In this document: positions 8,395 through 44,850 of the stretch, piece by piece | Numbering within the stretch: position 1 is the first letter of the stretch | Layout of the letters: each line of letters begins with the position of its first letter | Assembly (NCBI GenBank): GCA_014084085.1 | Contig: NPFB01000033.1 | Coordinates: 129,908 to 193,907, forward strand | Origin: Hondaea fermentalgiana | Taxonomy: Eukaryota > Sar > Bigyra > Thraustochytrida > Thraustochytriidae | Length of the DNA stretch: 64,000 bases | Direction: 5' to 3' | Notes under the pieces: generated by a model | Seen by the model: only the letters and a program-made list of their open reading frames with translations | What the model was told of the DNA's origin: nothing | Databases searched by the model: none | Made by a program: the position numbers and the translations under genes

Positions 8395-10203
8395 GCGTAA
8401 TGTCACGAGAAAGCCACGTCAAGGTAAGGCAAGCCTTGATTGACTGGTCGTCGTAGTGAGTAACCTAAAATCAAAGAAACGCCTGTTGGCCAAAACAATC
8501 GTCGCGTTGCGTGTGGCGACGCCACCACCGTTTTGCTGGAGCGCAAGTTCCCTTCCCTCCGTCGGTAGCGTGTTTGCGACGGGGTGTGCCATCCTGCTCG
8601 CCTTTACAGTTAGCTTGCCTTCCAGCACTTTCTGGGCGTCATGCTTCTGCCAACCAAGAAGCTGGCTGCAGACAGACGAACAGGTTGTATTGCGCGCCGG
8701 TGCGCGAAAAGCGAGTCCGACGGTGACGCTGCCGCGGCACGGACTGCGCGCTGTCTCGCTCTCCCCCCCCCCCCCGCAATGTGCCCCATACTTACCCAAC
8801 ACAACAACAACACCCTGCGGTCTCCGCGACTGGACGCACGCACCAGCACTGGCCGCGTGCGTGTTTGCGTGCGTGCGTGCTCGCTCGCAATGGGAGTTGC
8901 GAGACGCACGCGGTGACCGCAAGCTCGCGCTGCGCCGCGCTGCGCTCGCTGCGAGAATGCGCCACGTCTCGCATTCGCTCACCGCGCTCGCGGCTTGCGG
9001 GCGATGGACGTCGGCAGGTCGCGCTAGTTATAGCTGCAGCGGTGTGCGGGGCCGGCAGCGCAGCGACACTTCACGGTGCAGAAAGCGCAGCCAGGACCCC
9101 GAGCGCGCACTCGGATGCACGCGGCGGGTTTGCTGGCCGCCGCTCGCAGCGCAGCGCAGCGCGATCGAGGCCGCGGGGACGTCGAGGCCGCGAGGACGTC
9201 GAGGCCGCGAGGACGTCGAGGCCGCGAGGACGTCGAGGCCGCGGCGCCGTGAGGATGGATGGTCGTGGAGATGGACGATGTTGACGCTGCGAGGCCGCGC
9301 GAAGCCGGACGTTTCGCCCCGCCGTGCGTTCGCGTGGCGTGGCGTGGCGTGGCGTCTCGTGGCGCAGCGCAGCGCAGCGCGGCGTCTCGCAGCGCGTGCG
9401 GCTTCCGCGCCGGGTAGGGCACGGGCTCTGGCGCGTGGCCCCGCCATCACATCGCTCGCATCGCTTCGCATCGCATCGCTTCGCATCAACAGCCCCGCGA
9501 CGCGACGCGAGCGGAGACAGGCGGCGGGGCGAGGACGCGGGCTCGCGCTCCACGCAGGAGAGTGGTCGAGCGAGAGGTTCCGGGGCAGCAGAGCGCGGGT
9601 CAGGTCAGTCTCGCAGGTCTGCGCCGCGCGGCTGCGCATCGCGCGCGATCGCGCCATGTCTCGCTCGCGGGGCACGCGGGGAGTCCTGGCGCAGGCGCGG
9701 TACCTCCTCCCTGCTCGGCGCGCGGACGCGGCGCGCCCGGTCCCGTGAAAGACCCGCCGCGCGTGCGAACCCTGCCCCCTCCCGTTAGGGCTGTGATTGC
9801 GGAGGAGACGCGACCCAGTCAATCGATGCGCGCACGAGACACGCACACGCCGAGACAGAGCGTCCCAGCGCGCCGTCCTGCACGCCCTGCACGCCCCGCA
9901 CGCCGTGCACGCCCTGCAGTGCGCGGGGCTGCGAAGAGCGAGACCCCCCCCGCGCGGCGGGGACGGTACGTACGAGAGTTTGGGTTAGGGCGGCTGGCAG
10001 GGCATGGATGCGTGCGGATGTACCAAAGAGTGGGTAGCCGTGGAGGATAGAGGACGGATGTATGGAGGAGCTGGGGCGGCGCGAGCGAGGGCGAGAGCAA
10101 ACCCGAATCGAGCCGAGGCAGCGAGAAGAGCAGCGGCTTGCACGCAGAAAAGCGGCGAGCGAGCGAGCGAGCGAGCGAGCGCGAGGCCGGAGAGGAGAAG
10201 AGG
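8395..10203. other. GC-rich intergenic region and P450 leader
   Basis: No credible gene seen. The stretch has a 13-C homopolymer at 8763-8775, a 17-bp tandem repeat at 9164-9243, GCGTG and GCATCGCTTC short repeats at about 9335-9490, and a GAGC/GCGA run at about 10154-10185 just before the P450 start. Open frames on both strands are compositional. The right part is probably the promoter and 5' leader of the P450 gene. Confidence 0.6.
9164..9243. repeat. 17-bp tandem repeat
   Basis: More than four near-perfect copies of the unit GAGGACGTCGAGGCCGC. The unit contains the palindrome GACGTC and is very CpG-rich. Confidence 0.9.
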
Positions 10204-11895
10204 ATGTCGCTCGTCAAGGTGGCAGACTGGGCGCTGGCCCTGGTGGCGTGGGCAGATGCCACGGGTACCAACATGGAGCTCGGCCTGGGTGTCTTCAGGA
10301 AGCAGCGGAAAATCGTGCTCGACGCGCTGACCGTGCTGCACGCCGCGCGGCTCGCGATGAAGGGCCGCATCGTGCGCGCCGTCTCGCTGCTGGTGGCCAT
10401 CGCCAAATTCAGCCCGCGCAAGGGCCTCCCAGCGCTCACGCTCTTCCAATACTGCTGGCGCAGGGCTCTCTGGGGCAAGGCAGGCACCGAACTGCCTCCC
10501 GTGGTTCCCACGGATATGCTCGTGAAGGCAGTGCACAAGTACGGCCCGTGGAAGCGCCACGAGCTCGAAAAGGCCATCGCCAAGGAAATGGGCCCCATCC
10601 ACACCCTCATCCGCCCCCTCAGCAGCACCGACTACAGCCTCGCCATCCCCGTCGTCTGGGTCAGCGACCCCGTCGCCGTGAAAAAGGTCCTCACCGACAA
10701 GGTCACCTACAACACCCGTGGCCACACCGGCTTCACCGCGCACGTCGGCGACGGCCTCCTTGGTTTGCCCACCGGCCCCAAGTGGATGCTGCACCGCCGC
10801 GTCGTCATGAACTTTCTCAGCGAGAAGCACCTCCGCGACTACGCCCCCATCATGCAGAACCAGATCGCCGTGCTCCTCGACAAGTGGCGCAAGGCCGGCG
10901 AGGAGGGCCGCAACATCAACTGCTACTACGACATGTCCATGCTCACCCTCGACATCATCATGAACGTCGGCACCGGAGAGCACAATGACCTCTCGTCGCA
11001 GCAGCAGCTTACCGAGAAGGAGAACATTTTTGCGCACGACCTCGACTACGGTCTTCAAGACATTGTCCTGCGCACCGCCATGCCCATCATGGACTACATG
11101 CACGACCCCAAGATCGACGAGATCAAGGGCCGCATGGACGCCACCTTTGACCGCGCCGTCGAGATCGCCAAGGAGAAGAAGATTCCCAACTCGATGCTCG
11201 ACGCCCTTCTCACCGCCAAGAACGAGGACGGTTCTCTTGCTCTCACTGAAAAGGAGGCCAACGAGGAGTTCAAGACCATCCGCGGTGCTGGCCATGAGAC
11301 CACCTCCAACACCATCTGCTTCATGCTCAAGCTTCTCCAGGAGAACCCGGACAAGCTCGAGAAGCTCCGCAAGGAGGTCGACGAGGTTGTCTCTGGCAAC
11401 ACCACCTCATACGAGGAGGCCCGCACCCTCAAGTACGCCTACCAGGTCATGTTCGAGACGTTGCGCATGTACCCAACCGTCCCGTCCTTCCCGCGCGAAG
11501 CCTCATGTGACACCGAGCTCTGCGGCTACAAGGTTCCCAAGGGCGCCTTTGTCTTTGTCAGCCAGTTCCCCATGAACCGCAGCCCCGAGATCTGGGACAG
11601 CCCGAACGAGTTCCGCCCCGAGCGCTTCGACGACCTTCCGGACCTTCACCCGACCAAGCCTATTGGCGTGCCGGGCAACGACGACCTCAAGTACGCTTTC
11701 CTCCCCTTTGGCGCTGGCTCTCGCACCTGCGCTGGCGCTCGCCTTGCCATGATCGAAGGTGTCATGGTTCTCTCTTCCATTGTCAAGAACATCGACTTCA
11801 AGGTCGCCATGGACCCGCGCGAAGAGCTCTACATCCAGTCTGACGTTACCATGGGTCCCAAGCATGGACTTCCTCTTCGTGTCCGCGCACGCTAA
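10204..11895 (+). CDS. Cytochrome P450 monooxygenase
   Basis: A complete, intronless P450 of 563 residues. The start is the first ATG (10204); the leader upstream is a GAGC-type repeat. Diagnostic motifs are all present: the I-helix oxygen-binding segment G-A-G-H-E-T-T at residues 361-367, the K-helix E-T-L-R (E418, R421), a PERF-like segment (F-R-P-E-R-F), and the heme loop F-L-P-F-G-A-G-S-R-T-C-A-G with the axial cysteine at C509. The N-terminus is only moderately hydrophobic, so membrane anchoring is uncertain. P450s of this type hydroxylate or epoxidise lipids, sterols or carotenoids using a reductase partner. The motif set resembles the CYP4/CYP97/CYP102-like clade, but I cannot assign a subfamily or substrate. 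Codon use is strongly C-ending, suggesting good expression. Confidence 0.95.
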   Translation: MSLVKVADWALALVAWADATGTNMELGLGVFRKQRKIVLDALTVLHAARLAMKGRIVRAVSLLVAIAKFSPRKGLPALTLFQYCWRRALWGKAGTELPPVVPTDMLVKAVHKYGPWKRHELEKAIAKEMGPIHTLIRPLSSTDYSLAIPVVWVSDPVAVKKVLTDKVTYNTRGHTGFTAHVGDGLLGLPTGPKWMLHRRVVMNFLSEKHLRDYAPIMQNQIAVLLDKWRKAGEEGRNINCYYDMSMLTLDIIMNVGTGEHNDLSSQQQLTEKENIFAHDLDYGLQDIVLRTAMPIMDYMHDPKIDEIKGRMDATFDRAVEIAKEKKIPNSMLDALLTAKNEDGSLALTEKEANEEFKTIRGAGHETTSNTICFMLKLLQENPDKLEKLRKEVDEVVSGNTTSYEEARTLKYAYQVMFETLRMYPTVPSFPREASCDTELCGYKVPKGAFVFVSQFPMNRSPEIWDSPNEFRPERFDDLPDLHPTKPIGVPGNDDLKYAFLPFGAGSRTCAGARLAMIEGVMVLSSIVKNIDFKVAMDPREELYIQSDVTMGPKHGLPLRVRAR

Positions 11896-14593: not shown

Positions 14594-16918
14594 ATGGCCA
14601 CGCCGCCTGGTGGCACAGTCTCGCCTGCTCAAGATGACGACCTTCCCTCGATCGGCGACGCCACCTCATCCGGGAAACGCAAGAAAAAGACGCCCCAGGA
14701 AATTGAAGAAGAAGTGCGCGCCACGGTCGCCGAAGTACGGAGATCCAGCATTTTCTCGAGCATGAAAAGCATTGGATCGCCTCTGACCAACAGCGAACGC
14801 AGGGGATCAAACGGAGGCGCGCAGAAGATCAAACGTGCAATCCTGGCGCCATTCGCCGCCAAAGGCGACGCATCCTTAGGAAAGAATGCGTATGCAACAG
14901 CTGCTGGTCTCAAGTCTAAATCCGGAAAAGACGATGCTGGCGGTAAGAGGTCGGCGAGACAGTTCTCCGTCGTGGGCTTCCTCGACTCAAAATGGATCCA
15001 ATTCCTCATCTTTTTGGCGACGCTCTCTGCGCTGTTCGCGCCCGATCTCTTTATCATTTATGGCTCGATCGAGACGGATTATGTGCTGGACGACCTCATG
15101 TTTGTCACCTTGCTTCTCTTTACCATTGAGCTGGCCCTGAATTCAATGTACCGCGAAGGATACATTTTGTCATTCTTTTTCTTTCTCGACGTGGTGGCGC
15201 TCATTAGTCTGATCCCCGACATCAGTTTTATCTGGGATAAGATCATTGGCAATGACAGCGCTATTGCGAGTACGGACGAGCAAGATAATCTCGCCATTCT
15301 CCGAGCAGGCCGTCTTGTCCGCACAGGAACGCGAACGTCCCGAGCGCTGCGCCTCCTCCGCATCGTCCGCTTTGCGCGCCTCATGCGCATCTTTCGCCTC
15401 ATTCGAATTTTGCGCTCGCATCTCACCCGGAGGTATCTATCTTCCAAAGGTGACGCTCACACGCAAGCACCCAACAAGCTAGGCCTTCGTCTGGCCGATC
15501 TGCTTGGCAAGCGTGTCATCCTCGGGACGATCCTACTCCTTTTGGTCCTTCCGTATCTTGAGGTGAGTCGGGTCGACAGCTCGGCGGAGTACGGCCTCGA
15601 GCTACTCGAGTTGTCCTTTGAAGCCGGGAACGAGCCGTTGCCCGTCTACAACTCTTTAGAGAGCGCTTACATTGAGCAACAGAAAGAGTATCTCGTCGAG
15701 CTTATTGTCAAGAACGAGACCAGGTTTGTCAACGTGGACCTCAGTGAATCTGCAAGAGACGACTACCTCGTTTACGCAATTACCGACGCTAACAGTGTCG
15801 CTGTCCTCGACGAAACTCTCTTTGAGCAAGCCCAAGCCAAACTTAACATTATACTGACGTGCGTCCTCACGTCTCTCATGGCTCTCTCGTCCTTCTTTTT
15901 CAATCGGGATGTGCATCAAAATGTGGTGCGCCCAATCCGGAAAACTACAATGGTTGTTCGTAAACTTGCTCGCACCCTGTATTTGCTCTCAAAGGAAGAC
16001 GATGAAAAGCAAGATGCTGCCGATGACGAGTCGATGCTGGAGAGTCATTTTATCGACACCGTTATGGACCAGCTCATTACGTTTTTCAAGGTCGATGCCA
16101 AGGAGGATGAACATCCTTCTGGGAAGGCGGAAAGCGCAGATGCAAAGGTGCACCCATCGTCGTCGACGCAAAATCGCCTTCTTCATCAAGATAGTGCCCT
16201 CGACGTTCGCGAGGATCCCGAGCTGCGCCGAGCTATGGGCACGATTGACGACGAGCAGATCGATTCGCTCAAGTCATTCGAGAATCTCTTTGAGGACAAG
16301 CAGAGTCTGACATTCTTCAAGGTGTTTTTGACCTCTGAATTTGCTGTGGAAAGCTTGCTTTTCGTGGAGCAGGTTGACGCGTACAAGGCGCGTTGGGGTG
16401 TCATCAATAACATGCACGAGTCGATGGTCAGGCGGTACATTGACGAGCATGGCCAGTTCCAGGTTAATATTAACGACTCTCAGCGCCGCAGGATTCTCAA
16501 ATTTGATGGTCTTGCGTATCGTTTGGACCTCTATGACGAAGCGCGCCAAGAGATTTACAAGCAGCTGGAGCGAGATAACTTTCCGCGCTTCCTCAAATCC
16601 TCGCACGCGCAGAATCTTCGAAACTTCAAAAAGGCTGCAATTGCACGGAAGAAGCTTGAAGAGGATGCCGCGCTCGTCGGCGATGAAGGTCCTTCCGTGG
16701 ACCCGTACAAGATTGTCCGCATTGTCAAGACATTTACCTCTCGCTTGAGGCGTCCAGGGCCCAAGACTAGCGAGCCGACAAGCCCGAAAACGGCCGGAGC
16801 AGTGGACGGCGCCTTGGCTGAAGGTGGCGAAGAAATGAACGTCGGCGTTGTTGACGGAGCGCTCACAACACGTTCCGAGCCAGCTGCAAAGTCTGGGCCG
16901 TCGGACTCGGCCCCTTAG
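14594..16918 (+). CDS. Voltage-sensor domain fused to RGS domain
   Basis: A 774-residue membrane protein in one exon. Residues about 133-275 are a canonical voltage sensor: S1 at 134-157, S2 at 165-186 with acidic E179, S3 at 191-209 with D199, and an S4 with nine arginines at exact three-residue spacing, R250 to R274. A further hydrophobic helix (about 306-322) leads to a roughly 90-residue exoplasmic segment (323-412). A last helix (416-436) returns to the cytosol. No pore loop or GYG-type filter is seen, so it is probably not a channel. Residues about 555-680 match an RGS fold (S-F-E-N-L-F..L-T-F-F-K-V-F-L..E-S-L-L-F). RGS domains accelerate GTP hydrolysis by G-alpha subunits. Similar membrane modules drive cyclases in protists; here the output appears to be RGS. 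It is divergent from the 7TM candidate. Confidence 0.88.
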   Translation: MATPPGGTVSPAQDDDLPSIGDATSSGKRKKKTPQEIEEEVRATVAEVRRSSIFSSMKSIGSPLTNSERRGSNGGAQKIKRAILAPFAAKGDASLGKNAYATAAGLKSKSGKDDAGGKRSARQFSVVGFLDSKWIQFLIFLATLSALFAPDLFIIYGSIETDYVLDDLMFVTLLLFTIELALNSMYREGYILSFFFFLDVVALISLIPDISFIWDKIIGNDSAIASTDEQDNLAILRAGRLVRTGTRTSRALRLLRIVRFARLMRIFRLIRILRSHLTRRYLSSKGDAHTQAPNKLGLRLADLLGKRVILGTILLLLVLPYLEVSRVDSSAEYGLELLELSFEAGNEPLPVYNSLESAYIEQQKEYLVELIVKNETRFVNVDLSESARDDYLVYAITDANSVAVLDETLFEQAQAKLNIILTCVLTSLMALSSFFFNRDVHQNVVRPIRKTTMVVRKLARTLYLLSKEDDEKQDAADDESMLESHFIDTVMDQLITFFKVDAKEDEHPSGKAESADAKVHPSSSTQNRLLHQDSALDVREDPELRRAMGTIDDEQIDSLKSFENLFEDKQSLTFFKVFLTSEFAVESLLFVEQVDAYKARWGVINNMHESMVRRYIDEHGQFQVNINDSQRRRILKFDGLAYRLDLYDEARQEIYKQLERDNFPRFLKSSHAQNLRNFKKAAIARKKLEEDAALVGDEGPSVDPYKIVRIVKTFTSRLRRPGPKTSEPTSPKTAGAVDGALAEGGEEMNVGVVDGALTTRSEPAAKSGPSDSAP

Positions 16919-18043: not shown

Positions 18044-18916
18044 ATGCAGCCTGCAGGCAAGAATGAAGGACTCTTGCGAGGCAACAGGAAAGTGCAGTGC
18101 ACGAGCCTGCAGACGGTACGTTCGTCGCTCCATGAAGATGCTAACACATCACCACGTGCAGTTGAAATGTTCGTTCATTGCATGTTTGGCAAGAGAAACT
18201 AACGATGATGACGTGCAAGAGAAATATAGAGCCTTGCGTGTAACAAGCTGCTGCTCATGGGCTCATGCGTTGTTCAATTCGTAGTGTCATGCTTTGCCAT
18301 TGCTCAGTCATTGTACTACATGAACCACGAGGTTCTCTTCTCCGTCGTGTACACCGCTGGAGGAAGCACCGGGTTCCTCGTTGCTCTTTGTGCTGGAGTC
18401 ATTGCAGCAAACAGCGTCATGGGTCTTTTTGCAGCGCTTGCACGCCATCGAGGACTTCTCAAGGTATACTTGTTTGCAAGTGTGTTGCTTGGGGTATTTC
18501 AATTCGTCTGCGCGATCCTCGTCGCTGGCGCACGAAATCCAGATCAGCTTCGAGTGCAGGAATTCGAGATCAAGAGGGGATGGGAAAGGGTAATGGATAA
18601 TGTGGCGGCTGGCGGTAGCGATGCAGCCGACTATTTTGCTTTCGTTTCTCAAATTCAGAACGATGGCCGATGCTGTGGATATGACTCAATCGAGGACGAG
18701 CTTCAAAACCCAGCGGCAGCTCGCTGCTCGTTTGAAGACACCTGCAAGGAGTATCTTGCGACCTATATTATTGAGGAGGTCACAGCAGTGCTGCGAACGT
18801 ACTGCGTTTTTGTAAGCCTCTCGCTTGCGGACACGATCATGCTCTTTGCATTTGTCGTTCGCGTTGTTCCGCAGCCTGTACATCACGAGGACCCAGGAGG
18901 CTTGTACCATGCTTAG
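18044..18916 (+). CDS. Tetraspanin-like protein (two exons)
   Basis: Proposed model: join(18044..18115,18230..18916), 252 residues. Exon 1 ends at a GTACGT donor; the 114-nt intron has CTAAC about 30 nt before an ATATAG acceptor, phase 0. Splicing restores a cytosolic N-terminus followed by C-N-K-L-L-L and TM1, the usual tetraspanin beginning; using only the ATG at 18257 would cut into TM1. TM2 and TM3 follow, then a large extracellular loop with the family hallmark C-C-G (in R-C-C-G-Y-D) plus further paired cysteines (A-R-C-S-F-E-D-T-C), and TM4 (V-F-V-S-L-S-L-A-D-T-I-M-L-F-A-F-V-V). Tetraspanins organise membrane microdomains and partner receptors. Family assignment is good; the first exon is predicted. 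Confidence 0.75.
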
Positions 18917-29442: not shown

Positions 29443-32403
29443 CTAGAGGATGACGATCGTCTTCAAGAGAGTTAGAAGCGTCATGGGATTCGCATCGAGG
29501 AAACCAAGAACATTTTCCTGCGTAATGTAGAACAGGACGCCCTCATCCGAGTCGCACTTGAGTGTGACCGTAAGTTCTGCATTGGCGCTCATGGCAAAAA
29601 GATCGCAAACAAAACACCCGGTGGTGAGAGGGTCAAAAGAAAGAGACTCGGACTCCTGTGCCATGTGAGCTCGCTTCTGATGCGGATGCCGCGTCGCCGT
29701 GAGAAGCTCAAAGGGATCGGCATTGTGTACCTCCTCAAAGACAAAGTCGCCAGATAGAATCAGCACTGCACCGTGGCCCGTGCTGCCCTTGCGCCAGACT
29801 TCGTCTCCTCGCTTAAACTGCCGGCGGTGAAGAAAGGCTTGCAAGCTCGTCTTTTGCGCAGCAGACAGTCGACGAAGCAGCGAGTTGCGGGCAATGGCGT
29901 GCCAGCTGCCATCCATGCGACTACGCACGAGGCACTCCATCTTTGCGTAAAGCTTCTTGTCCTTCATGAGAAAGTAGTGGAACGCGTACTTGTCTACCTC
30001 GACAATCGTGCATGCAGTTTCTGCCACAATCGTCGCCGTACGGTCCTCACCTGTAATGACGGAGATCTCGCCCAAGTAGTCGCCTACCTTGAAAACCTTT
30101 TTGGTCTTTCCGAATGAAACGGAAGCTTCGCCAGACATAATGACCATAAACTTGTCGCCAGGAGTGCCCTTTTCCGCAATAATCTGTCCGGGCTGGTAGT
30201 CCACGTTGGTGGACATGAGTAGTAGCTCCAGGGCCTGTGGGATCGGGAACCCGCGGAATATATCGACGCCCGCGATAAGCTGCATGAACCGCAGTGTATC
30301 CTGCGTGTCGGTGTTTGGAATGAGCACCGCGGTATTTTCGAGTCCGGGTTGACTCACCTTAAGGCCTGCAGCAATCGCATTGGCCTGGTCTTTGTTGCCA
30401 ATATGAATGAGCTGGATGTTGGCTCGATGTTCGGGTGGAAGGCTGTCAAACGCCGAAATCGGCGTATGGATTGGCGGAACACCTGCCTCGTGCAATACCA
30501 GGTCGCTGTGCCAAGGAAAGTTGAGCAGAGCGTCGCAACGGGCCCGACTGAGCACACCGCGTTCATGCATCTCCTCGAGACCTTTGGGCTCGTAAAAGGT
30601 GTCTGCCGAATACACCATACTCTTGCCTTCAAAGGTGACCTCAAAGCCGACGCACGGAATGGCGTGCAAGGAGTAAAAGAATCGAAACGAGGCCCCGCCC
30701 CAGTACGTTGGCTCTTCGACAAAAACCGGACGAAAGTTGACGAGCTGGCGCAGAAAGTCTGATCCGAGGCCCGCAACACCGCTGTACTTGCGAAGCAAGG
30801 ACTGAAATATTGTCTTGGTCGTCATAAGCGTGACCTTGTCCTCGGTAATGACTTTCTGGATCGTTCCTGCGTCATGATCGGCATGGCAGTGCGTAAGAAT
30901 GGTCGCAGTGATGAGCTTGGGCTGAATACCATTCATTTTAAGGAATTCGCCGCTGTGCGGCGGCGGGTCCACCATGATTCCCTGGCCATTAATCCAGATG
31001 ACAAAGCCAGACGTCGACCCAAGAGCGTCGAAACCGTGCGAATTACCCAGAATCGTCATTCCGAAGCGTGGAATGCTAAAGTTTGATATTGGTGTCTCCA
31101 GCGTCGCGCTTGGCGAAGACACCACAGAATTTTCAGGATCATCGTCCGCGCCGAGAACACCCAGAGATGCAGGTTGTCGAGGAACGGCTGTAGTCGGGTC
31201 CATGCCAGGAAAGAAGCAACTGCTCGCCTCGTCGTCAGAAATAGCCGCAAGAAGCGTATCCTCCTGCAAGACCGTAAAACCAAAGGACTCATCCTTGATC
31301 ACTACGTCGTTATCAAGCCGGCACTCCCCAAGTGCATTGAAATAAGCAAACTTGACAAGGTTTGAGACCTTGATGGCCGGCGTTCCTGGCCGAGGTTCGC
31401 AAAAGACGGCCATCTCCTTGACGTGATCAGGCCGCGCAGCCAACACGTCCTCGGAAGCAAAGCGAGAGTACTCTTCGTTGATGTAGAGCTGGTCCTCGTC
31501 GGGACCATCGAGGGCTTCCTTCATTATGGTCAAGAGATCTTCGGAGCAGTCCTGGTACGTGATGAGCGTCATTTGCCTCTTTCTCACGAAGAAGTTGAAG
31601 AACGCCGGGAACTCAATCTCGCTCACGTTGATTCCAGCCTGCATATTGAATCTCTCGCGAGGGACAACGAACAAGGTCGGAACTTCGAGACCCAAGTTCA
31701 TGCTGTCCTTGACCGTCTCTGGCGGGATACCAAATTGCACCGGTCCGGCTTTGGTATGCACGTAGACCCCGCCACGAGGCAAATGATAGACGGACTGAGG
31801 CCCCCCTCCGGGCTGACCCATGTTTGTGTTCGAGTCGAGGCTGCTAAAGGCGACGCTCTGTTTGGACTTTTTCCCTCGAAGATGCAGGTTCAGTTGTTTT
31901 GCAATGCGAGACGGGCCTCGATTGTACGTATCATTATTGGACTTGGTACCACCAAAGCTGCTTGCGCCGCTGGTGCTACTGCTTGCGAGGCTGCTTGAGA
32001 GCGCCGCCGACACGCGCTTGTTTATGTTGTGTCGACTCATTGTAAACGCTGCGTCCTTGGGCGCCGACACACGTTTGTCGCCCGGTGAAGCCTTGAGGTG
32101 TCGGAGATACGGCGCGCCGCCAGCTTCCCAGGTGTCATCTTCGCCGGACTTGAGCTGATTAATTTCCACCGTCAGACTGGCAATTTTACACTTGTGATTC
32201 TCCACCTCTTGCAGACGTCGCTTATTTTCTTCTTTGGTTTGTTCGAGAATGTGCTTGAGCTCTGCGTTAGCATTTTCGAGCTGGGCGCGAGCAGCCTTGA
32301 GCGACTCATTCTCTCGGGCTACGCTGCCAGCATCCACAACCGGTTTTGCTTCCTCGGGCTGAGACGGGGAGATCGTCTTCGGTTTACTTCTAGCTGTGCC
32401 CAT
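29443..32403 (-). CDS. Class II cyclic-nucleotide phosphodiesterase-like (MBL plus two cNMP-binding domains)
   Basis: 986 residues, starting at the ATG at 32403. The N-terminus M-G-T-A-R-S fits the N-myristoylation pattern M-G-x-x-x-S. A short coiled coil covers about 28-85 and a Ser-rich linker follows. An unnamed globular region lies at about 205-395. The metallo-beta-lactamase fold begins near 445 and carries the metal motif H-C-H-A-D-H-D (H505, H507, D509, H510), with later Y-S-A-D-T and H-E-A-G-V metal ligands. At about 715-810 lies a cNMP-binding domain with an intact phosphate-binding cassette (L-G-E..R-T-A-T). A second at about 850-970 lacks those residues. This order, MBL then tandem cNMP domains, matches Dictyostelium GbpA/GbpB (PdeD/PdeE), cyclic-nucleotide-stimulated phosphodiesterases. 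I infer cAMP or cGMP hydrolysis with allosteric activation. Confidence 0.85.
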   Translation of the reverse strand: MGTARSKPKTISPSQPEEAKPVVDAGSVARENESLKAARAQLENANAELKHILEQTKEENKRRLQEVENHKCKIASLTVEINQLKSGEDDTWEAGGAPYLRHLKASPGDKRVSAPKDAAFTMSRHNINKRVSAALSSSLASSSTSGASSFGGTKSNNDTYNRGPSRIAKQLNLHLRGKKSKQSVAFSSLDSNTNMGQPGGGPQSVYHLPRGGVYVHTKAGPVQFGIPPETVKDSMNLGLEVPTLFVVPRERFNMQAGINVSEIEFPAFFNFFVRKRQMTLITYQDCSEDLLTIMKEALDGPDEDQLYINEEYSRFASEDVLAARPDHVKEMAVFCEPRPGTPAIKVSNLVKFAYFNALGECRLDNDVVIKDESFGFTVLQEDTLLAAISDDEASSCFFPGMDPTTAVPRQPASLGVLGADDDPENSVVSSPSATLETPISNFSIPRFGMTILGNSHGFDALGSTSGFVIWINGQGIMVDPPPHSGEFLKMNGIQPKLITATILTHCHADHDAGTIQKVITEDKVTLMTTKTIFQSLLRKYSGVAGLGSDFLRQLVNFRPVFVEEPTYWGGASFRFFYSLHAIPCVGFEVTFEGKSMVYSADTFYEPKGLEEMHERGVLSRARCDALLNFPWHSDLVLHEAGVPPIHTPISAFDSLPPEHRANIQLIHIGNKDQANAIAAGLKVSQPGLENTAVLIPNTDTQDTLRFMQLIAGVDIFRGFPIPQALELLLMSTNVDYQPGQIIAEKGTPGDKFMVIMSGEASVSFGKTKKVFKVGDYLGEISVITGEDRTATIVAETACTIVEVDKYAFHYFLMKDKKLYAKMECLVRSRMDGSWHAIARNSLLRRLSAAQKTSLQAFLHRRQFKRGDEVWRKGSTGHGAVLILSGDFVFEEVHNADPFELLTATRHPHQKRAHMAQESESLSFDPLTTGCFVCDLFAMSANAELTVTLKCDSDEGVLFYITQENVLGFLDANPMTLLTLLKTIVIL

Positions 32404-33919
32404 GGTGGGTGGCCTCTCCGAGAGGGTGGGGGCGGGCAAGACGACTGACGGCGCGAGAAATTTGAGCGGGGTTTGGAGTAGAGGTCCTTTAGGGCGATTG
32501 TTCTATAAATATGAACCAACCGACGTTTCCTCGCCGCTCGCCTCCTCCTCCTCCTCCCCCTCGTCGCTTCTATCTGATCCACGGAGACAGGGCTAAAAGG
32601 AGGAAAAAAGGTGTTCTTGCTCTCGGCGTCGGTCGGTCGGTCGGCCGGCCGGTCGGTCGGTGCACCACCGCTTCGCGCAAGACGGTTCGCTTTGTTCCTC
32701 TGCTCCTGCTCCCGCACCCGCGAGGCCGCGCTCGGCTCCACGCGCCGCCTCGCTCGCCGCTCCCTCGCGCGGTGCAGCGCAGCGCAGCACAGCGCGGCGC
32801 AGGGCAATCTCCCGCGCCCGCCGCGCGGACGCGTTGCGGCTCTCCTCTCGCGGCTCTCCCCGCGATCGCTGCCTTGCCTTGCCTTGCCTTGCCTTGCCCT
32901 GGCCTGCCCGCTAAACTTGCTCGCTCGCCGCCTGCCCGCCTGCCGCGCCGTCCTCCGTTCGCCCTCTCGCTCGCGCGCTCGCTCGCTGGCCGCGCGGCGC
33001 GTGCACGCGTGTCTTCGCGCGCGTACTCGTTTAGCGCCGCCGCAATCGATCTCCTCGCGTCCCACGCACGCGCCCCTGCGCCGCGCGCGACGGACCCGCG
33101 CGCCCTGACCTGGCGACCTGCCGCCGCCCGGCTGCAGCTGCTGGCTGGCCCCGCCCCGCCGCGGGCATCCCCGCGCGAGCCTCGACGCAAGCGCTTGGAG
33201 CGGTCGCGGCTATGCTATGCGGCGCGATGCGTGCTATGCCCGGAGGAGCCGCGGCGCGCCGTTGGTAGACCCGCCGCCCTTGAGGTGCACCTGGCGACTT
33301 TCGCCCGATGGAGTTGCCCCGATACGTGTCAGTTGGGTGCAGCGAAGCTGCCGGGGAAACTAGAGGCGGGGCAAACTGTTGCGAGATACACCCAAACGCA
33401 ACGGATAGGTTCGGAGCGGGGCCAACGGATCTGGCAGGGCGGTGCTTCGGGCGGAAGGACGACGAGGAAGTGAGAGAGAGAGAACGAGCAAGCGAACCTG
33501 CGCGGAGGGAGACAAACGACAGCGTGGTGAGGGCGAGAGATTTTTCTGTTCTCGGTAGAGCTTTTTGGATTTGTTCGTGAGTTTGACGCTGTGTAGCATG
33601 GAGTGGTCGTGTTTAGCGTGAACACTGAAGCGAAGGAGATCCGCCCGCGCCGACGTCGAGAATGAGAGGTTGCGCGATGCGAAAGGCAGGGGGGTAGTTG
33701 GTGCCAGTGACTAAGCGTGTGCTATGGTCCTTTTACTGAAGGTTAGGACAATTTATGTGCTCGATCGTTTGATCAATGAATGACGGCACCGACGGATCTC
33801 ACAACATTCATCATCTGCGCCTACTAGTGTATATGCGTGTTTGTGTGCGCGCTAGCTGGCTGGACAAAAAAGGACGCAAGGTACGACGCAGAAGTTGAGA
33901 GTCATCGCGCGTCGCGACA
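32404..33919. other. Shared GC-rich 5' region (CpG-rich)
   Basis: About 1.5 kb between divergent starts at 32403 and 33920. It is very GC-rich, with GGTCG-type (32632-32660) and CCTTG-type (32875-32898) short repeats. Open frames on both strands encode only low-complexity R/A/P-rich sequence. No gene seen; probably a bidirectional promoter. Confidence 0.55.
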
Positions 33920-40773: not shown

Positions 40774-43700
40774 CTACGAATGAGTTGGCAGCGTTTGTGA
40801 TGGCGCCACGAAGATCATCGCTTCTGTTGGCGACGGCACTGTATACTTGTCTGCGAATCGCTTCGAGCCCACCGTAATGGTTGGCAGCTGCACGTTGCCA
40901 CTCACGAGTGGAACAAGGTTGAGCTTAAACTTTGTAGACTGCGTCGGCCCAAGAAGGAGCGTGGTGGAGTAGCTTCCAGCAATGTAGAATGACGAATTTC
41001 GCGACACAGAAAGCTCGAGCTCCTGCGCCATCCCCGATGCATTCTGAATGTCGAGGACTGCAAGCATGGACTCGCCCACGCGCTTGTCTTCGGAAGGAAA
41101 TGTCGAGAGTGTAAAGAAAAACTGCGTGTGTTCCACTCGCAATTTTGGCAGTGGAATGTGCATGGTCATCTCCGGCCTGCCCTCTTGGCGGCGCCACAGA
41201 ACTGCCACATAACCCAAGGTCGTGTTGTCACCCATCGAGGATGTGCTTACTTCAAAGCCGAGCGAAAGACGTTCGCCGCCGTGCATTGCAACAGGGGCTG
41301 GAAGCACAGACGTAGATACGTTCGAAGCCCCCGGTGTCTCGTCGAGCCTTCGCGTCGGGGATGTTGACTCGCTGGCAACCGTACACATTTTGGACGGCTC
41401 AACACGAACGTCAACAACCTCGATACGGTCGACAGCAAGAGGCTCTTGCGGGCAGACAAGATCAAGGTCGACAGTACAGGGAGCGTTGACGCCCAAGGCA
41501 CTTGGTAGCTGCGGATTGCGTGGAATGAGTTTGACTTGGCTCTCGAAGGGAAGACAGCAAGGGATCTCGAATGTCTTGTTTGCCTGCACGCAGGTCCTTG
41601 CGTTTGGGAGCACGTAGTCCAGCCTGAGTGTACACTTTCTGGCCTGACGACGCCCCGACGCCGCAGATGCAGAAAACGGTAGCGAGCTGAACCGACATGC
41701 AAATTTGATCGAGCACGATGTCCCAGGCTCGAGAGAGACATTCTGCTCGAGAGGATCACTTGGCTGCAGATCATCGGATGAAAGCTCGAGGGACGTATGA
41801 TCCATTTTGAAAAAGAACGGCGTTGACTTGGACTGCAATGGTGGATCGCACGTGACCCAGAGCTTGCCGTCCCTGATTGATTCCTCGCCTGCGGAAAGGT
41901 GTGCCTCGAGCTCAAACATTTCACCAATCAAAGCGAAGCCTGTATGTTCGAGACGAATCTCTAACGAGCTTTCAAAGGGGCGAATGACCAAGGAGCGCGA
42001 GGGACGAGCTGGCGTCGAGCTTTGCTGCTGAGATGCACCATGAGATCTCGCGCCATGCATGGCAGACGAGAGAGAGATTCTACTGGTCCCGTTGAGGTTT
42101 GGCGAAGCTGTGATTAGATTGAGCACCGTGTCGCTCGAGTGCAACGGGTCATTAGCGGCCTCTCGGGCAGACGACCACAAAGACACGCCCGAGAACATTG
42201 CAAAGCCAGCTGGTGGCTCCATCGTGGCCGATTCCTCAGCCACGAGCTTGAGCTGCAGGCGCACGGGCGTCAAGGGAACACCACGACGAGACGGCGAAGC
42301 CAAGAGCCCGCCTTGGCGGTGCCTCGCGAGGCTCGTCATATCGCCTGCGTCCGCAGAAGAAGAACGCGGCTTGGAATTTTCCAGATCAAGAAGATGCACA
42401 GGGACCTTAAAAGTCTGCTCTGTGTTCGCGGCGAAGCGCACCTCGCGTTGGCCCTCCGTCAAAGGAACCTCGTAGCGCGAATCATTAAAGATCATGGAAA
42501 GGGTTTGAAAGCGCGTCTCGATGTGAAAGGTCGACCGTATTCGTACAACGAGCTCTACCGTGTCGCCTACTGCGGCTTCGTGACGGTCAAAGTATGCGGA
42601 CCACTGAATGGGAGAATCTTCCAAATCATCGAGTGTAAAACCAAGTTTGAGACGAGCACCATCAGGCGTGTTGCCATCCTTTGCGCGGCGCACGGGCGTG
42701 GCGAGCCATGTGTGGAACTGCTGGGCGACAGCCGCCTTGCGCGCTGGCGGCACAGCGCGCATGGAGAGGAGGCGAAGCGCGCTGTGCATGACTTTACGAC
42801 GCTCGGAGACAGCATCAATGTCAAAGTCAGCATCGCCGGGAGAAAGCTTGGCCGCCGAGTCAACAATATCGAATAAAACTGGCTCAGCGAGCGCGAACCA
42901 TTGATCGCGATTGAAGGCGACGACGGCATGGAGGAGGTCCTGCATGGCCAGTCCAATGGCCCCTCTCTGGACAAGCTCGCGGCCAATGCAGGCCCGGATT
43001 CCGGCGATTAGACGGACGCTTCGCGCATCTTTGTTCGTCTCGGTGGATAGAGCGAGAACTCTGCGAAGCAAATGAAGCGCCAAGGCGCCCTGATCACACT
43101 TGGCCTCCTCGAGGTATATTGCGCACTGGGTCAGAGAGTTCGACACCGATGCTTCAATGGACGCATTGCTCTGCATAGATGTCACTACCGGATATGCGCC
43201 CATAAATTGGCTTGACTCGACGCGAGCATTGTGCTGACTTGTAAGGGAGTCGAGCTGCTCGCGCAGTTGTTGGGCGTTTGCAGCGGAAGGGCCGGCGACA
43301 CCGAGCGCCTCCGCGGCCTCTCGGCGCCGGATGGCAAAACGGCTTGCAAGACGAGTGTGATATGCAACGCTGCAGCGCGCTCGATCGAACGCGGAGAGTC
43401 CTGAGAGGGAGACGGCGGTACCGAGTTCGTAAATGAGGCCCGAGAACCCTACATGCTGATTTGCAAGCCATTCCCAGTGCTGGAAGATGAGACTGGCGGG
43501 GCCCTCGAGGGCACGAAAGGTGCGCATGTGCCGATCAAACTGCATAAGTATGGCCTTGGTACTCTGGCTCGACGAAAGACGCAGCCGACAGAGGCGAATG
43601 TGCACTATTTCTGCAACAGCCTTGATCTCCATGACGGGGTAGGTGCCCGGCGCGTGAACGAGAAGCTCCTCGGTCTGCATTTGAGTGGGCCGATTTGAGG

Positions 43701-44850
43701 ATTTGCGGGAGGCAAGCTCAATGCAAGCCAGATACGCGAGCTCGTGATGTTTGAGTGCCTTTTCAAAGGTAAAGGTTGCCTCGTAAAGGCGTGCCATCTT
43801 GAGATTGTAGCGAGCAGTCGCGGCGTAGTAGGCCTCGACACTACGGGTTCGGCTCCCATGCTGTTGTTGACCCAAGTGAAGAAGATGTTGTTGCGCGCGC
43901 AAGCCTTTTGCTGTGTAATATGCGGCAGACTCCTTGCGTACGATTCGCGCCAGAGACACAAGCGGCGCCTCGGCAGCATCGGCACTATTCACAACAACCA
44001 CGCAGTTTTGTGAGAGCTTGAGTTCGCGTGCGAGCGCACTCGTCCTCTGCTGAACCTGTTCTAGCTTGTGAGGCACCTCGAGTTGGGACGGCACGTCGCT
44101 CTCAGCAAAGAGAATGACAATAATGCGAACAAATGACGCGTACTGATTAAGCCCTCGACGAAGCTCGGCCACTTTGTCTCCAATTTCACGATCAGGGGCA
44201 TTTGCTTGACAGACAAGAAGGACACAGCTTGGAATGAGACCCTGATGTTTGTCCATCCAGGCTGTAGAAAAGATCCCTGCGAGCGGCTTCCCGCCAGTCC
44301 CACCGGAAAACTGTTGCTGTTGCTGCTGTTGCTGCAAGGTGTCTGCGTCGACACCTCGCTGCATTTCCTGGAGCCTCACTTGAGGTTGCATGGCCGCGTC
44401 TTTTTTCGTTGGGTAAGCAAAGCGCATCGATCGCTCGTGCACGACGAAGCCCCCAGAATCGTCGTTGCTGTTGTCATCACTGGCGCTTGCGCCTTCATGA
44501 TTCTTTTCACCGGGGTGAAGAGCTCCTGCCGCGGGGTCGCCGTCGTGGTCGCCCTGCTTCGGGCCCGAGTTCTCTCCCGCGGCATCGAGCGCCCGCGAGG
44601 CAGGGCGCAGCACGACGCCGGTCGCGCGCAGGGTCTCGGTGAGCCCATGCCGTAGGCCCGCTGCCACGACGGCGCCATCCTTGCCTGCGGCGCCGGCCGC
44701 GTGCCGTGTCGTTGCCGCGCGCTCTGCGCCGGGGCCGGTCTTCTCCGCGTCCGCCTGCACCACCGCCACCAGCGGCCGCAGCGCCGCGCCGCGCATGGCG
44801 CAGGATCTTTTCGTCTTGTGCCTTTGTCGATCGATCGATCGATCGATCAT
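40774..44850 (-). CDS. TRAPPC11 / foie-gras-like trafficking protein
   Basis: Up to 1358 residues in one exon. The first ATG (44850) sits in a GATC repeat. A second in-frame ATG at 44796 opens M-R-G-A-A-L-R-P-L-V-A-V-V, which resembles the usual TRAPPC11 beginning and may be the real start (1340 residues). After a disordered part and a short polyQ come V-L-L-V-C-Q and N-C-V-V-V-V-N strands. A helical foie-gras-type repeat region follows (about 330-560; Y-N-L-K-M-A-R-L-Y-E..A-L-K-H-H-E-L-A-Y). The C-terminal half is beta-rich, Ig-like sequence of the gryzun type. TRAPPC11 is a subunit of TRAPP III, a Rab1 activator needed for ER-Golgi transport and autophagy. Assignment rests on domain pattern and length. 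Confidence 0.72.
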   Translation of the reverse strand: MIDRSIDRQRHKTKRSCAMRGAALRPLVAVVQADAEKTGPGAERAATTRHAAGAAGKDGAVVAAGLRHGLTETLRATGVVLRPASRALDAAGENSGPKQGDHDGDPAAGALHPGEKNHEGASASDDNSNDDSGGFVVHERSMRFAYPTKKDAAMQPQVRLQEMQRGVDADTLQQQQQQQQFSGGTGGKPLAGIFSTAWMDKHQGLIPSCVLLVCQANAPDREIGDKVAELRRGLNQYASFVRIIVILFAESDVPSQLEVPHKLEQVQQRTSALARELKLSQNCVVVVNSADAAEAPLVSLARIVRKESAAYYTAKGLRAQQHLLHLGQQQHGSRTRSVEAYYAATARYNLKMARLYEATFTFEKALKHHELAYLACIELASRKSSNRPTQMQTEELLVHAPGTYPVMEIKAVAEIVHIRLCRLRLSSSQSTKAILMQFDRHMRTFRALEGPASLIFQHWEWLANQHVGFSGLIYELGTAVSLSGLSAFDRARCSVAYHTRLASRFAIRRREAAEALGVAGPSAANAQQLREQLDSLTSQHNARVESSQFMGAYPVVTSMQSNASIEASVSNSLTQCAIYLEEAKCDQGALALHLLRRVLALSTETNKDARSVRLIAGIRACIGRELVQRGAIGLAMQDLLHAVVAFNRDQWFALAEPVLFDIVDSAAKLSPGDADFDIDAVSERRKVMHSALRLLSMRAVPPARKAAVAQQFHTWLATPVRRAKDGNTPDGARLKLGFTLDDLEDSPIQWSAYFDRHEAAVGDTVELVVRIRSTFHIETRFQTLSMIFNDSRYEVPLTEGQREVRFAANTEQTFKVPVHLLDLENSKPRSSSADAGDMTSLARHRQGGLLASPSRRGVPLTPVRLQLKLVAEESATMEPPAGFAMFSGVSLWSSAREAANDPLHSSDTVLNLITASPNLNGTSRISLSSAMHGARSHGASQQQSSTPARPSRSLVIRPFESSLEIRLEHTGFALIGEMFELEAHLSAGEESIRDGKLWVTCDPPLQSKSTPFFFKMDHTSLELSSDDLQPSDPLEQNVSLEPGTSCSIKFACRFSSLPFSASAASGRRQARKCTLRLDYVLPNARTCVQANKTFEIPCCLPFESQVKLIPRNPQLPSALGVNAPCTVDLDLVCPQEPLAVDRIEVVDVRVEPSKMCTVASESTSPTRRLDETPGASNVSTSVLPAPVAMHGGERLSLGFEVSTSSMGDNTTLGYVAVLWRRQEGRPEMTMHIPLPKLRVEHTQFFFTLSTFPSEDKRVGESMLAVLDIQNASGMAQELELSVSRNSSFYIAGSYSTTLLLGPTQSTKFKLNLVPLVSGNVQLPTITVGSKRFADKYTVPSPTEAMIFVAPSQTLPTHS

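Follow-up and report, generated by a model that had tools for sequence, protein, structure and literature searches.

The gene addressed here lies at positions 14594-16918 (+) of a 64,000-nucleotide stretch of the Hondaea fermentalgiana genome (contig NPFB01000033.1; hereafter the window) and encodes a protein, P0001, in which a voltage-sensor domain (VSD) is joined to an RGS domain. The 774-residue open reading frame (ORF) starts with ATG and has no internal stop; the stop-to-stop frame comprises 777 codons. When the H. fermentalgiana genome was searched with P0001, the only full-length match among six was the window gene itself. In this protein a pore-less VSD is followed by helix 5, a small domain on the exoplasmic side, helix 6 with its connector helices and, at the C-terminus, the RGS domain (Table 1). 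An initial annotation of the window, made from the DNA alone, had placed a voltage sensor and an RGS domain in one protein, and this was borne out: the two parts share a single frame, the RGS match is significant and both recur together in seven further proteins. These observations support a VSD-RGS architecture for P0001.

Table 1. Features of the P0001 gene. Positions are those of the window.
Feature	Residues	Position	Strand	Evidence
Whole gene, P0001, VSD-exoplasmic-RGS	774 aa	14594..16918	+	ORF, Pfam, protein and genome searches
S1 helix, invariant D151	133-156	14990..15061	+	model, alignment
S2 helix, F176 and E179	159-186	15068..15151	+	model, alignment
S3 helix, D199	194-209	15173..15220	+	model, alignment
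S4 ladder, ten Arg at i+3	R247-R274	15332..15415	+	alignment, model, shuffles
Linker end and fifth transmembrane helix, highly conserved	295-322	15476..15559	+	hydropathy, conservation, model
Exoplasmic domain	323-407	15560..15814	+	model, charge/sequon scan
Sixth transmembrane helix into cytosolic helix, invariant P447	408-472	15815..16009	+	model, alignment
Second connector helix, invariant E483, HAMP-like order	480-500	16031..16093	+	model, alignment
RGS domain	561-670	16274..16603	+	Pfam, structure-sequence search, RGS4 mapping

Voltage sensor, exoplasmic domain and connector

Hydropathy analysis identified five segments in the membrane part of P0001; S4 scores too low because of its charge, and an additional marginal peak falls within the RGS domain. 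A structure model (mean predicted local distance difference test score, pLDDT, 80.2) places six helices in the membrane and shows the fold of a voltage sensor. With five hydropathy segments besides S4 and six helices in the model, there was no sign of a seven-helix domain like that of G-protein-coupled receptors, and P0001 probably crosses the membrane six times.

The acidic residues E179 in S2 and D199 in S3 are located as initially annotated, and together with F176 in S2 they make up the expected charge-transfer centre of a VSD, which in Kv-type sensors has the spacing F-x-x-E. F176, E179, D199 and R259 are identical in all 76 aligned rows. The i+3 spacing of S4 arginines from R250 to R274 was also correctly described, but the count of nine was not, as the ladder begins at R247 and contains ten. 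The longest i+3 run in 20,000 shuffles of P0001 was five, against the ten arginines observed, and the longest basic i+3 run is 8 to 10 in each of the nine rows of the RGS clade. The ladder lies inside a predicted helix spanning residues 230-281 (block pLDDT about 56-75).

A search with the PF00520 profile (Ion_trans), proposed in the initial annotation, gave a divided answer: the match in P0001, which spans residues 133-274 only, is below the cut-off (E 0.049, 13.3 bits against 25 bits), whereas four of seven relatives (P0002, P0004, P0005 and P0008) exceed the cut-off and three fall below it. A profile made from the 76-row alignment matches the Shaker channel (E 2.3e-5). Comparison with voltage-sensing phosphatase structures had also been proposed at the outset, and the best structural match of the P0001 VSD model is the voltage sensor of Ci-VSP. 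Predicted fold and sequence both relate the P0001 VSD to known voltage sensors. A PTEN-like phosphatase domain gave no Pfam row in P0001 at E <= 10, and the S4 signature of Hv1, RxWRxxR, is absent from P0001, where S4 reads RALRLLRIVR.

Downstream of S4, residues 294-324 have a mean pair identity of 0.76, the highest of any continuous stretch among those measured in the RGS-type family. The 85-residue exoplasmic segment that follows the fifth helix is modelled in the order helix-helix-strand-strand-helix-strand-strand. It carries one N-glycosylation sequon in P0001, where the net charge is -14 across residues 323-410, and in all nine RGS-clade rows it has sequons and a net charge of -7 to -14, consistent with a location outside the cell. 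The domain is among the faster-changing parts of the protein (pair identity 0.32, compared with 0.65 for S4), as would be expected of a ligand site but equally of a loose spacer. The VIA-align rows were filled by voltage sensors, so that the exoplasmic fold was barely probed by them. The fifth helix, like the exoplasmic module and the final helix first proposed, is supported by hydropathy and model.

The initial annotation saw no pore, and when the segment joining helices 5 and 6 was scanned for the patterns of common channel filters, none was found in the nine RGS-clade rows. The string GFG or GYG occurs there in two of the 76 rows (P0110 and P0131), both outside the RGS clade. An ion channel reading was rejected on two grounds: no filter pattern was seen, and the model folds the stretch linking helices 5 and 6 into a domain of helices and four strands. 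Residues 409-519 match no Pfam family at E <= 10, HAMP included; membership of HAMP was dropped, and it is only in the helix-Pro/helix-Glu order of its connector that P0001 resembles this family.

RGS domain and candidate Gα partners

The RGS assignment, which had been made from the sequence alone, was confirmed by profile search: PF00615 matches P0001 with 45.5 bits (E 1.2e-11; the cut-off is 23.9), and the RGS box exceeds the curated cut-off in eight of eight proteins (P0001-P0008). A sequence search of solved structures retrieved RGS4 at E 1.3e-8. The full-length structure model of P0001 is poor; Foldseek placed RGS1 at rank 20 (E 0.65, probability 0.89), and no RGS chain is present among the 50 VIA rows for this model. 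The assignment of the domain therefore relies on sequence.

Using the alignment from the solved-structure search, P0001 was mapped onto RGS4, and 16 Gα-contact positions were compared among the eight RGS-bearing members. Thirteen of these 16 positions are invariant, as opposed to 18 of the 94 other domain positions (Fisher p 2.5e-6). RGS4 residues E87, N128, D163 and R167 are kept as E586, N625, D661 and R665 in P0001.

The H. fermentalgiana genome gave 32 RGS matches and 17 Gα matches, 11 of the latter being loci over the Pfam cut-off. Eight of the 11 Gα loci have a switch I of the form R-x-R-T-[ST]-G together with DVGGQRNER as switch II, and the switch regions are divergent in three (L045-L047). 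One tight cluster of three Gα loci is found at G000 C26:13576-22826 (L037, L038 and L040) and a second, likewise tight and of three, at C91:596324-602895 (L041, L042 and L044). The L040 match contains one in-frame TGA.

Relatives and the VSD-cyclase family

Seven other proteins (P0002-P0008) share the domain order of P0001, with 35-57% identity in the alignment; P0002 is 56% identical to P0001 over 97% of its length. The database entries of P0003 and P0008 begin without Met. The initial annotation had allowed that VSD and RGS might stem from two separate transcripts; in P0004 the two parts lie together in one transcript-derived ORF from MMETSP marked as complete, which speaks against separate transcripts in the case of that relative. 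An additional protein, P0011 (595 aa), belongs to the RGS clade by its VSD module. It is encoded on a contig of 1,975 bases and ends before the position of the RGS domain, which may possibly be missing by truncation, although loss would look the same. PF26726 is precomputed for P0001-P0008, P0011 and the listed cyclase-type relatives. Judged by their sequences, the VSD-RGS proteins are a conserved family and not a single oddity.

Alignment and tree show that the module up to the connector (VSD-TM5-exo-TM6-connector) is homologous with that of protist VSD-nucleotidyl cyclases, a type known from stramenopiles and alveolates. The initial annotation had cited such cyclases as analogues and had overlooked this kinship, which makes P0001 less isolated and the voltage-to-output reading more plausible. 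Four cyclase-type relatives used as queries retrieved 743 hits; all 120 of those listed carry PF26726, and the 623 unlisted ones may include ordinary cyclases that have no voltage sensor. Stentor, Blepharisma, Tetrahymena and Phytophthora proteins are among the matches listed. From the 120 rows, 65 were picked by eye to remove near-copies (alignment A4). H. fermentalgiana itself has two VSD-cyclases, L032 and L033, both over the cut-off for Guanylate_cyc; L065 lies on the contig of L032 and has the same open-frame length of 1,501 aa. The cyclase profile PF00211 gave no row in P0001 at E <= 10 or in P0002-P0008 at E <= 1, an RGS domain being present instead.

In a 78-row tree, unrooted, obtained by a quick search and leaving out the exoplasmic and output parts, a branch with a Shimodaira-Hasegawa-like approximate likelihood-ratio test (SH-aLRT) value of 100 separates the nine RGS-clade rows from all others, and one label change suffices to explain the outputs. 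The other 69 rows owe their cyclase-type label to the search and to precomputed Pfam assignments, PF00211 not being on all of them (absent, for example, from P0035 and P0060). Six of the 69 were scanned: L032, L033 and P0012 exceed the Guanylate_cyc cut-off, P0124 and P0010 are below it, and P0009 has no Guanylate_cyc row at E <= 1. P0009 (4.17) and P0010 (1.64) have long branches. The single, fully supported RGS group suggests that the RGS domain replaced the cyclase once, and in this unrooted tree the exchange probably ran from cyclase to RGS. P0001 is most readily interpreted as a relative of the VSD-cyclases whose output was exchanged, so that it carries RGS in place of a cyclase. One cyclase-type relative, P0103 (1195 aa), is listed with PF00626 (gelsolin) and suggests further domain shuffling in the VSD-cyclase family.

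A possible voltage-regulated Gα regulator

We lean towards the view that P0001 is a voltage-regulated, membrane-tethered regulator of Gα, in which RGS has replaced the class III cyclase of an ancient protist VSD-receptor. The membrane potential would move the S4 arginine ladder past the charge-transfer centre formed by F176, E179 and D199, and the conserved S4-TM5 linker (residues 294-311) would transmit this movement to the fifth and sixth helices. The exoplasmic domain, through a ligand, may modulate the transmission as an added input. The connector helices (P447...E483) would then change pose and present the RGS domain to, or withdraw it from, Gα-GTP at the inner face of the membrane, the likely outcome being a voltage-dependent shortening of the Gα-GTP lifetime by GTPase-activating protein (GAP) activity. 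Voltage sensing by P0001, its coupling to RGS, the sign of the effect and GAP activity are thus all predicted. With some hesitation, we suggest that P0001 might represent a new class of voltage-sensor protein, in which voltage directly sets the lifetime of active Gα through the tethered RGS domain, with neither a receptor nor ion flux being needed and with an exoplasmic ligand as a possible second input.

Two points weigh against the RGS domain being a working partner of Gα. The position of RGS4 Asn88 is occupied by Ser (S587 in P0001) in eight of eight RGS-bearing members, and of 13 contact positions compared, six equal the RGS4 residue and seven differ. RGS4(N88S) is described, in the passage concerned, as a dominant negative that does not stimulate the Gα GTPase (PMC3688948). 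Given this description, the invariant S587 makes GAP activity of P0001 uncertain. Ser is also found at the Asn88 position of two further H. fermentalgiana RGS domains, L017 and L021 (the latter locus overlaps L028), so that it is possibly tolerated and may be compatible with function. The initial annotation had proposed that voltage directly controls how fast a G-protein is turned off. The architecture behind that proposal is supported by Pfam, alignment, model and the Ci-VSP match, but a switch-off rate needs GAP activity; a voltage-set GAP rate is plausible, and voltage control of the RGS-Gα interaction is the best reading.

The same serine is the starting point of an alternative that we consider unlikely but deserving of weight, namely that the RGS domain binds Gα-GTP without acting as an efficient GAP, and that P0001 is a voltage-controlled Gα trap, effector or docking platform. 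A binder would also require a constrained contact surface, as is seen in the 13 of 16 invariant positions, and the N88S form of RGS4 offers a precedent. However, the equivalents of RGS4 E87, N128, D163 and R167 are retained, and the serines of L017 and L021 suggest that Ser at this position may be tolerated. More doubtful is the idea that the exoplasmic domain is the true sensor, ligand-gated in the manner of plant seven-transmembrane (7TM) RGS proteins, with the VSD serving only as anchor or modulator. This domain of helices and strands, located between helices 5 and 6, adjoins the connector to the output and diverges as fast as a ligand site may, and plant 7TM-RGS proteins provide a precedent for a receptor-like membrane RGS protein (PMC3386157, in the part describing them). 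An unused voltage sensor would nevertheless be expected to lose its charges and counter-charges, whereas the four residues F176, E179, D199 and R259 are kept in every aligned row and the long basic i+3 runs in every row of the RGS clade.

It is very improbable that the VSD itself conducts protons or ions, either like Hv1 or as a gating-pore current, and that the RGS domain only localises it or allows its regulation by G-proteins. The Hv1 signature is lacking and the cyclase domains on the sister branch suggest a signalling output over conduction, against which stand an invariant acidic residue in S1, D151, and the fact that a pore-less VSD can conduct, as in Hv1 (PMC13095418, in the passage on this channel). 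Joining of two genes by misassembly or a wrong frame can be practically dismissed: gene prediction in one genome alone would not suffice to exclude it, but the frame is continuous, the identity to P0002 extends over nearly the whole length and seven other proteins, one of them transcript-derived, have the equal fusion.

The proposed voltage-regulated Gα regulator can be compared with several known systems. Like P0001, Ci-VSP has a pore-less S1-S4 sensor fused to a cytosolic output. In voltage-sensing phosphatases the phosphatase is joined directly after S4, whereas in P0001 two extra helices and the exoplasmic domain stand between the VSD and an output that is RGS. PPTG_13136 and PPTG_13761 of Phytophthora parasitica are described as proteins lacking pore-helix homology, with the S4 motifs of a voltage sensor and a C-terminal cyclase (PMC12223298, in the section on these proteins). 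They share with P0001 a pore-less voltage sensor and a cytosolic output, and the collected VSD-cyclase relatives share its module and invariant residues; from the description, and helped by P0124 of Phytophthora boehmeriae, we infer that both belong to the VSD-cyclase family discussed here. Their output is, however, a class III cyclase and not an RGS domain acting on Gα, and the same section gives them five and three N-terminal transmembrane helices (PMC12223298), as against the six predicted for P0001. The adenylyl cyclases of Paramecium, Plasmodium and Tetrahymena likewise tie a VSD to a cytosolic signalling output, but combine it with a K+ channel pore, as stated in the relevant part of a review (PMC10651576); neither pore nor cyclase was found in P0001. 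AtRGS1 (PMC3386157) and a Naegleria 7TM RGS protein (PMC9283941) are described as joining a receptor-like membrane part to an RGS domain that accelerates GTP hydrolysis by Gα. This arrangement recalls P0001, but their membrane part is a seven-helix domain, with no voltage sensor mentioned in the passages concerned, whereas P0001 has a VSD. Oomycete 7TM receptors are fused to cyclase, phosphodiesterase and kinase domains, 7TM-RGS being mentioned for plants in the same passage (PMC6033456).

A figure legend in the VSD review refers to all VSD proteins reported to date (PMC10651576), and its abstract and relevant passages name ion channels, the sperm Na+/H+ exchanger, Ci-VSP and protist adenylyl cyclase. 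The term 'RGS' is absent from its text, and both 'RGS' and 'cyclase' are absent from PMC13095418. An RGS output of a voltage sensor was unfamiliar to the initial annotation and was not found in our searches of the open-licence literature, judged mostly from titles and the beginnings of abstracts; one match to voltage and RGS, PMC7760700, was rejected because 'RGs' there denotes reference genes. A pore-less VSD receptor with a cytosolic output is already known, and the RGS output is new as far as these searches go. If the proposed reading is correct, VSD-RGS adds a type of output and provides a one-molecule route from voltage to the state of a heterotrimeric G-protein, alongside which the sister proteins in the H. 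fermentalgiana genome may convert voltage to cyclic nucleotide. The protist VSD receptor is suggested to have a swappable output, so that the same chimeras could serve to test the coupling to voltage both in P0001 and in the parent cyclases. A working P0001 would also offer a natural scaffold on which to build a G-protein regulator that is tuned electrically.

A search of the genome for omega-3 PUFA synthase gave 17 matches (best E 1.5e-137), none exceeding the cut-off, and 11 of 14 control genomes matched as well. Elsewhere in the window, a cytochrome P450 is encoded at 10138-11892 (+), a tetraspanin at 18257-18913 (+) and a Foie-gras/TRAPPC-like protein at 40777-44850 (-). A 998-aa ORF at 29446-32439 (-) combines a metallo-beta-lactamase fold (PF00753, 5.9e-7) with a cyclic-nucleotide-binding domain (PF00027, 2.5e-17).
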